Assembly (NCBI GenBank): GCA_025925185.1
Contig: JAICLV010000127.1
Location: 1 to 6,699 of the forward strand
Length of the DNA: 6,699 nt
Reading direction: 5' to 3'
DNA from: Acidothermaceae bacterium
Lineage (GTDB): Bacteria; Actinomycetota; Actinomycetes; Acidothermales; Acidothermaceae
Shown: piece by piece, positions 823 to 1,512 of the stretch
How the letters are laid out: each line of letters starts with the position of its first letter
Position numbering within the stretch: position 1 is the first letter of the stretch
Translations under genes and position numbers: made by a program
Notes under the pieces: generated by a model
Told to the model about the DNA's origin: nothing
The model's database searches: none
What the model saw: only the letters and a program-made list of their open reading frames with translations

Positions 823-828
823 ACTCCT
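823..828 (-). promoter_or_regulatory. Shine-Dalgarno of the DUF4395 gene, part of a possible RNA switch
   Basis: AGGAGT read on the minus strand, 7-8 bases before ATG 815. It decides the start of the DUF4395 gene. Its AGG forms part of GTCAGG (831-826), which can pair perfectly with CCTGAC at 867-862, so access to this site may be controlled by upstream RNA structure. Confidence 0.8.
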
Positions 829-915
829 GACTTTTGCGACGGGAAAGGTAGGGAAGGCCGCGTCAGGGTCGGCGGATCGCGTTCGCGATCAGATCATGGA
901 AGCTGCAGCCGACCC
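823..915 (-). promoter_or_regulatory. Putative cysteine-responsive attenuator structure in the DUF4395-sulfurtransferase leader
   Basis: Directly visible on the minus strand after the leader peptide stop are three pairings. Helix A is GGGTCGGC (915-908) with GCCGACCC (873-866), a perfect 8 bp. Inside its loop is a second perfect palindromic stem, GATCGCG-AA-CGCGATC (890-875). Helix B is CCTGAC (867-862) with GTCAGG (831-826), 6 bp, which takes in most of the Shine-Dalgarno. Helices A and B share bases 866-867, so they compete. Inference: a ribosome on the leader stop codon would cover the 915-908 arm and favour helix B (gene off). A ribosome stalled on the leader Cys codons would leave that arm free, favour helix A and expose the ribosome site (gene on). 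No U-tract follows any stem, so intrinsic termination is unlikely. A C-rich, G-poor stretch at 857-836 could be a Rho loading site. Confidence 0.55.
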
Positions 916-917
916 GG

Positions 918-1010
918 TCAGGACATTCGACACAGGCAGGTGGCCACGCGGCACAGGTCGACCGCGCGCCTCTTGGTGAGGTTCAACTCACCGGTGAACA
1001 CCTGCTGCAT
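918..1010 (-). CDS. Cys-containing leader peptide (regulatory uORF) upstream of the sulfurtransferase operon
   Basis: A 30-codon ORF, ATG 1010 to TGA 918, in the gap between the thioredoxin and DUF4395 genes. The peptide begins MQQVFTGELNLTK and ends RRAVDLCRVATCLCRMS, with Cys at residues 20, 25 and 27. The VDLCRV...CLCR ending is the pattern I know from actinobacterial putative leader peptides ahead of sulfur-assimilation and sulfurtransferase genes. The role is probably in cis: its translation reports Cys-tRNA supply to the structured RNA just downstream. The Cys codons are TGC, TGC and TGT, the last probably uncommon in such a GC-rich genome. There is no spaced Shine-Dalgarno (GAAGG abuts the ATG), but a promoter at 1046-1017 predicts a transcript starting at or beside the ATG, i.e. 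leaderless translation. The ORF stop is two bases before the first arm of a perfect 8-bp helix. Confidence 0.82.
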   Translation of the reverse strand: MQQVFTGELNLTKRRAVDLCRVATCLCRMS

Positions 1011-1016
1011 CCTTCG

Positions 1017-1046
1017 ATGGTACGAAGATCGGGCCCCGCCTGTCAT
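1017..1046 (-). promoter_or_regulatory. Housekeeping-type promoter giving a leaderless transcript for the leader peptide
   Basis: On the minus strand, ATGACA (1046-1041; five of six match TTGACA), an 18-base spacer, then TACCAT (1022-1017; fits the actinobacterial TANNNT -10). Six bases separate the -10 from the A of ATG 1010, so the predicted start site is at or next to the first base of the leader peptide. It lies entirely between the thioredoxin stop (1060) and the leader start, so the DUF4395-sulfurtransferase unit can be expressed independently of the sigma-factor operon. Confidence 0.68.
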
Positions 1047-1059
1047 CTTGATCTCCAGG

Positions 1060-1512
1060 TCAGCGCTCGGCGAGGCGCTCGCCGGCGGGAATCGCGGGAA
1101 TCGCGGCGCCCAACGCGGCCAGCACGTCGGCCTTGCGCGGCGCCCCGCTCGCGCGCTTCACGACCCGCCCACGCTGATCGAGCACGAAGATCGTCGGCGT
1201 GCGCATCACGTCGAGGCGGCGCACCAAATCCAGGTGCGACTCGGCGTCGATCTCGACGTGCGCCACGCCATCGACCGCCGCCGCGACGTCCGACAAGGTG
1301 ATCCGTGCCGCCCGACACGGCGCGCAAAACGCAGACGAGAACTGCACCAGCGTCGCCCGCGCGCCGAGCGCGGCCTCGATGTCGGACGCCGTGAGCACGT
1401 CGTCCGAACCAGTCTTGACGTCGCGCACCGCGCCGTTGCGCGCGCGCCACACCAGCCCGACCCCGGTCGTCACAACGAGGAGGCCGATCAGGATCCACAC
1501 CGCAGGTTGCAC
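1060..1512 (-). CDS. Membrane-tethered thioredoxin-fold protein (ThiX-like)
   Basis: A 150-residue protein with one N-terminal transmembrane segment (about residues 5-22) and a thioredoxin fold. The active site reads SSAFCAPCRAAR with Cys63 and Cys66. The cis-proline loop is MRTPTIFVLD with Pro106, and the C-terminal helix follows. The resolving motif CAPC differs from the CGPC of classical thioredoxin. Positive charges after the helix (Arg23, Arg25, Arg30, Lys33) and almost none before it predict the catalytic domain on the cytoplasmic side, unlike secreted TlpA/ResA-type proteins. The start is GTG 1512; the only ribosome-site resemblance is a weak AAAGA just upstream, so the start is less certain than the domain. 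The gene lies 37 bases after the anti-sigma factor gene and ahead of the sulfurtransferase leader. Role inferred: a disulfide or persulfide reductase, perhaps partner of the sulfurtransferase or of the anti-sigma factor. Confidence 0.87.
   Translation of the reverse strand: MQPAVWILIGLLVVTTGVGLVWRARNGAVRDVKTGSDDVLTASDIEAALGARATLVQFSSAFCAPCRAARITLSDVAAAVDGVAHVEIDAESHLDLVRRLDVMRTPTIFVLDQRGRVVKRASGAPRKADVLAALGAAIPAIPAGERLAER

Follow-up and report, generated by a model that had tools for sequence, protein, structure and literature searches.

In Mycobacterium smegmatis a small ORF with clustered cysteine codons lies upstream of cysA2/Msmeg_5788 and is occupied by ribosomes, according to a portion of PMC4633059. 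A functional study of mycobacterial cysteine leaders (Canestrari et al. 2020) is described in excerpts of PMC9031893 and PMC13236596, the second of which also gives the general form of unmasking of a downstream ribosome-binding site by a stalled ribosome, and an excerpt of PMC9094748 provides a further published link to cysteine leader peptides. Judged by its name and its downstream gene, the published uORF ahead of Msmeg_5788 would be the namesake of the NCBIfam family NF042933 (leader_Ms5788A). In the work of Canestrari et al. the stalled ribosome reportedly exposes the downstream ribosome-binding site. The classical amino-acid attenuators (e.g. the trp, his and leu leaders) likewise rely on a leader ORF that senses charged tRNA, and part of PMC1183508 describes how in the leu leader the choice of control codon (CUA) raises the sensitivity.

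The DNA that we analysed (a stretch of 6,699 nucleotides from an Acidothermaceae bacterium, hereafter the window) contains on its minus strand an ORF of 30 codons followed by TGA (918..1010), the translation of which, read from 1010 to 918, is MQQVFTGELNLTKRRAVDLCRVATCLCRMS. The frame matched NF042933 with 54.1 bits (E 8.8e-15; curated cut-off 45) and the wider putative-leader domain NF042934 with 38.4 bits (E 6.2e-10; cut-off 27); a form of 42 amino acids was scanned, and the match falls within its last 23 residues, inside the 30-codon ORF. As both scores exceed the curated cut-offs, we rejected the explanation that this is a chance ORF. By its sequence, the element is of a known kind, the Ms5788A family of cysteine-rich actinobacterial leader peptides. 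An earlier note on this DNA had placed the ORF and its three cysteine codons (953-951, 938-936 and 932-930) exactly where they are found, whereas its description of the ORF as unannotatable does not hold, there being a curated equivalog in NCBIfam. Numbered from the conserved aspartate (D), the cysteine codons are Cys20 (TGC, D+2, 951..953), Cys25 (TGC, D+7, 936..938) and Cys27 (TGT, D+9, 930..932), all on the minus strand, the last being the proposed sensing codon. The codons of Asp18-Leu19-Cys20-Arg21 (948..959, minus strand) form the core D-[LF]-x-R.

Downstream of the leader, on the same minus strand, lie a DUF4395 gene (PF14340, 369..815, with ATG 815 as its likely start) and, after it, a gene for a rhodanese-type, CysA2/SseA-like sulfurtransferase (PF00581, 1..372, truncated at the window edge); the stop of the former and the start of the latter overlap by 4 nt. 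A thioredoxin-like gene (1512..1060) is found upstream of the leader, and further upstream, at 1550-2865 on the same strand, are genes for a sigma factor of the ECF type and for an anti-sigma factor with a zinc finger. The Ms5788A-type leaders, which by name and position include the uORF before cysA2 of M. smegmatis and M. tuberculosis, share with the window the peptide family, the leaderless geometry and a downstream sulfurtransferase, and a thioredoxin-like gene is found upstream in many of the relatives. They differ in that the mycobacterial leaders have a cluster of cysteines whereas those of the window leader are spread, in that the anti-SD of the window lies at the stop codon whereas in several relatives with a cysteine run it lies within the cysteine codons, and in that, of 158 relatives, 68 have DUF4395 between the leader and the sulfurtransferase and 90 do not.

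Of 396 genomes sampled across the phylum, 26 contained a match to NF042933 with E up to 1e-3, and 12 exceeded the cut-off; within one order the corresponding figures, at E up to 1e-5, were 342 of 397 genomes and 113 above the cut-off. For closer study we took 167 loci, the window among them; most were top-listed family matches, and the sample is hence not random. Five of these were dropped because the pattern found no leader; among the remaining 162, a sulfurtransferase followed in 158, directly in 90 and after DUF4395 in 68, and the four loci without one were dropped as well. A redundancy filter (85% identity over 120 nt) reduced the 158 loci to 68. We also looked from the other side, at 80 DUF4395 loci, in 40 of which a sulfurtransferase was found downstream. 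The first pattern, [VIL]D[LMI].R[VIL], recovered a leader in just 7 of the 80, which was a fault of the pattern: a scan for leaderless geometry only found leaders, mostly of the VDF or VDH type, in 32 of the 33 further DUF4395-sulfurtransferase loci, so that 39 of the 40 have a leader (7 by the first pattern and 32 by the geometry-only scan). In the 40 loci without a sulfurtransferase in the fetched stretch, a short cysteine-containing ORF was seen in 9, of which 8 looked family-like by eye.

The only sigma-70-like promoter site within 800-1100 consists of a -35-like hexamer ATGACA (1041..1046, minus strand) and, after a spacer of 18 nt, a -10 hexamer TACCAT (TANNNT; 1017..1022, minus strand), with 6 nt between its end and the leader ATG; shuffled sequences gave a mean of 0.0 such sites. 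Since the promoter ends so close to the ATG, the leader is predicted to start leaderless at ATG 1010. The alternative in-frame ATG at 1046, which would give 42 amino acids, was rejected because it falls inside the predicted -35 box, and ATG 1010 is thus the better start. The same geometry, a TANNNT followed after 6-8 nt by an in-frame ATG or GTG, was found in 155 of the 158 relatives against 1.13 expected from shuffles, and in 65 of the 68 non-redundant loci against 0.56. No intrinsic terminator-like site (hairpin plus U run) was found in 800-1100 between leader and gene, a difference from the classical attenuators, and no Rfam family matched 780-1560 over threshold (naRNA4, at 1318-1409, stayed below it with 21 bits against 59.5).

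The peptide core is conserved. Asp is present in 68/68 non-redundant leaders and in 57/57 further leaders of the wider family, and so is Arg at D+3 (68/68 and 57/57), with variation among synonymous codons, although the Asp and, partly, the Arg had been built into the search patterns. In the wider family the Arg is encoded by CGC, CGT, CGG, CGA, AGG and AGA alike, and the D-[LF]-x-R core also appears in the geometry-only set, where a few leaders have His or another residue at D+1. The retention of these amino acids (D, L/F and R) despite their varying codons suggests that the nascent chain plays a part.

Leaders with spread cysteines predominate, and cysteine runs, as in the published mycobacterial type, are less common in our sample. 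The 68 non-redundant leaders have two (13 leaders), three (34) or four to eight (21) cysteines, and 47 of them have no Cys-Cys run. The window leader has three cysteines and a longest run of one, unlike the contiguous cysteines of mycobacterial polycysteine attenuators; as most relatives have two or three cysteines and most lack a run, its arrangement is typical, and the peptide LTKRRAVDLCRVATCLCRPVI alone was recovered in 41 fetched loci. The suggestion of the earlier note that spread cysteines may imply a different way of sensing is thus not supported, while its core, a conserved actinobacterial leader peptide before a DUF4395-sulfurtransferase pair with sequence features fitting cysteine-responsive stalling, agrees with the family match and with the relatives, in which the reading frame is conserved, a check for which that note had asked.

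Another finding was the nearly invariant codon at D+9. A cysteine is present nine codons after the conserved Asp in 68/68 non-redundant leaders, as TGT in 65, whereas the cysteine at D+2 is TGC in 63/67 and all cysteine codons other than D+9 amount to 134 TGC and 49 TGT. The preference is sharpest in the 47 run-free leaders (D+9 TGT in 47/47; remaining cysteines 81 TGC and 3 TGT) and weaker in the 21 leaders with a run (18/21; others 53 TGC and 46 TGT). In the motif-free, geometry-only set D+9 was TGT in 32/32 (elsewhere 32 TGC and 2 TGT), and the 8 family-like leaders before DUF4395 without sulfurtransferase had TGT in 8/8. For comparison, TGT makes up 6% of 81 cysteine codons in the downstream genes and 14% (59/422) in a set of 186 long ORFs, filtered by GC3, from the 80 DUF4395 loci, a share that is 11% before a C. 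Neighbouring synonymous sites vary; at D-1, for instance, all four Val codons occur. As a separate observation, the Ala codon of LTKRRA (window 963-965) is GCG, and GCG or GCA is used in 54 of the 56 non-redundant relatives with Ala at this site and GCC in 1, against 57% GCC among the Ala codons of the downstream genes.

The leaders of NF042934 (cis_reg_atten) extend this pattern. Matches (E up to 1e-4) were found in 16 of 296 genomes, up to ten per genome, and after removal of 6 loci that the first set already included, 57 further distinct leaders remained. Most share the core RRx[VI]D[LF]xR, and a cysteine at D+9 is present in 51 of them, encoded by TGT in 50, while the other cysteine codons are 35 TGC and 7 TGT. 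They differ from the window leader in often having a single cysteine, in showing the -10/ATG geometry in few of those scanned (part of the set) and in their downstream genes, which include sulfite/nitrite reductase, a PALP-family enzyme, cysteine dioxygenase and others. One long ORF within 450 nt was scanned behind each of 10 of the 57 leaders, chosen by length so that it may not be the first gene, and 9 of these ORFs gave a Pfam match, namely nitrite/sulfite reductase, PALP-family enzyme, FMN reductase, two luciferase-like monooxygenases, NMT1-like binding protein, dicarboxylate-type symporter, 2OG oxygenase and cysteine dioxygenase. The six leaders without Cys at D+9 (L082, L250, L297, L300, L302 and L304) include two without any cysteine (L300 and L302, LTRRLHIDLLRVSSAY), and the proteins that follow L250, L297 and L300 appear to begin alike; the one such protein tested, that of L300, had no Pfam match at 1e-5. 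A leader VRLWRRVHMDLVRYAGCVCRPS[CF] with close variants recurs in L258, L259, L266, L267, L268, L274, L275 and L316. In L259 it is followed by the ORF for cysteine dioxygenase, a cysteine-degrading enzyme for which control of opposite sign would be expected.

Over all sets UGU occupies D+9 in 155 of the 159 leaders that have a cysteine there, related sequences that do not count as independent events. On this pattern of codon use UGU at D+9 is likely the sensing codon. Its near-fixation is apparently new: no description of UGU in actinobacterial leaders was found in the literature searched, which did not extend to the full text of Canestrari et al. 2020, where it may be mentioned.

In the predicted fold of the window, the anti-SD UCCUGAC (917..923, minus strand), made up of the last codon, the stop and the next base, pairs with the complementary GUCAGGA in the SD region of the DUF4395 gene (825..831, minus strand), and the minimum-free-energy structure places a hairpin GGGUCGGC...GCCGACCC between the two (866..915, minus strand; coordinates counted by hand). 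The fold from leader to SD was not significantly better than that of shuffled sequences (z -1.63, 12/200 as good). Among the DUF4395-first relatives (34 non-redundant loci; 5 of the 68 loci had been dropped for want of an SD) the duplex of each leader with its own SD was stronger, at -16.77 kcal/mol, than that with swapped partners (-13.60; 0/5000 permutations as good) or with shuffled sequences (-13.01), an advantage that holds separately for the 18 run-free leaders (26/5000) and the 16 with a cysteine run (0/5000). In 34/34 a ribosome positioned at D+9 overlaps the bases that pair with the SD, largely by construction since the tested stretch starts near that ribosome. In a model with one static ribosome footprint and equilibrium folding, the cost of opening the SD was 7.04 kcal/mol without a ribosome, 7.02 with the A-site at D+2 and 4.71 at D+9, a relief of 2.33 at D+9 against 0.09 with shuffled leader ends (p 1.7e-6, 29/34). 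The idea that stalling at any cysteine codon opens the SD was rejected, D+2 being without effect.

The 29 sulfurtransferase-first relatives showed neither leader-SD pairing nor relief, and the RNA circuit is therefore not general. In a second, motif-free DUF4395 set (32 loci, reduced to 20 non-redundant ones after 3 without SD and 9 redundant ones were dropped) own pairing was no better than swapped (950/5000 permutations as good) and the relief was small (0.70 vs 0.03, p 0.048, 14/20). At -12.1 kcal/mol, the window's own duplex falls short of the mean for swapped partners in the DUF4395-first group, which lowered our confidence in the attenuation reading set out below. The modelled relief in the window was 0.8 kcal/mol for D+9 and 3.0 for the next codon, and only 0.13 at D+9 with an 8-nt definition of the SD and a transcript 10 nt longer. 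At the hairpin's predicted downstream arm lies a second CCUGAC (862-867, minus strand), which could likewise pair with the SD of DUF4395 and perhaps hold it shut once the anti-SD of the leader is covered.

The explanation that we favour, and consider probable, is that of a leaderless cysteine-sensing leader ORF that would control DUF4395 and, via the 4-nt overlap, the sulfurtransferase by translational attenuation. That the window leader responds to cysteine at all we infer by analogy with the published work on other members. Judging from the -10 geometry, transcription would start at or beside the ATG. When cysteine is plentiful, the ribosome would complete the leader and depart, upon which the leader end UCCUGAC, across the stop, would pair with GUCAGGA as in the predicted fold and shut the SD. 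When Cys-tRNA is scarce, the ribosome would, in our model, pause at the cysteine codons, above all at the UGU of D+9, and cover the anti-SD, leaving the SD of DUF4395 accessible; the overlap would then pass control on to the sulfurtransferase. The conserved Arg-Arg-x-Val-Asp-Leu-x-Arg, kept as amino acids, probably tunes the pause.

The same conservation could point to arrest by the nascent peptide itself, in which RRxVDLxR together with the cysteines would stall the ribosome in response to cysteine, Cys-tRNA or some sulfur metabolite, with codon starvation as a secondary effect. The persistence of D, L/F and R despite codon variation is what this would predict, and the single cysteine codon of many wider-family leaders offers little for plain codon starvation, yet an effect of the amino acid alone would leave the codon at D+9 free instead of fixing UGU in 155/159; we regard such arrest as a serious but rather doubtful candidate. 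That the fixed UGU is an element of RNA structure or sequence, uninformative on decoding, appears unlikely to us: on average its third U is predicted to pair with an A slightly less than half of the time (in the window 0.61), but no partner is consistent (means of 0.44-0.46 for A, 0.19-0.33 for G and 0.23-0.35 for the unpaired state), the codons on either side vary, and UGU is fixed also in wider-family leaders before other genes.

Control of transcription, by attenuation or Rho-dependent termination, with translation of the leader deciding whether RNA polymerase continues, was suggested for the cysteine leaders of Mycobacterium, Propionibacterium and Bifidobacterium in a portion of PMC1262725, and the sulfurtransferase-first relatives, being without SD pairing, need another route of some kind. 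For the window we hold it to be distinctly unlikely, given the matched pairing of leader and SD among the DUF4395-first relatives and a search of 800-1100 that returned no intrinsic terminator-like site, a result that does not speak against Rho. Highly improbable, finally, is a functional small protein (e.g. a thiol- or metal-binding peptide) whose upstream position is incidental; a conserved peptide with two to eight cysteines would suit it, but its end is variable, the synonymous choice at one cysteine is nearly fixed, and 158 of 162 loci have a sulfurtransferase after the leader.

Beyond translational attenuation at this locus, we tentatively propose, as an idea about which we remain somewhat more doubtful than convinced, that the leaders act as single-codon sensors, with a UGU placed nine codons past the nascent-chain motif D-[LF]-x-R. 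The peptide would prime the ribosome and the wobble-read UGU would set the threshold, so that even leaders with one cysteine could work; one cassette would serve many actinobacterial sulfur genes, and cysteine runs would be a lineage-specific amplification. Bacteria generally read both UGU and UGC with one tRNA-Cys. If that is so here, competition between isoacceptors cannot explain UGU, and the synonymous choice would act via decoding speed and not via isoacceptor charging. The proposal adds a testable rule, namely that one synonymous third base is nearly fixed while other synonymous sites vary. If true, it would name the sensing codon, explain cysteine sensing by leaders that have one to three cysteines, and provide a natural case in which the choice between two codons that share one tRNA appears to matter functionally.
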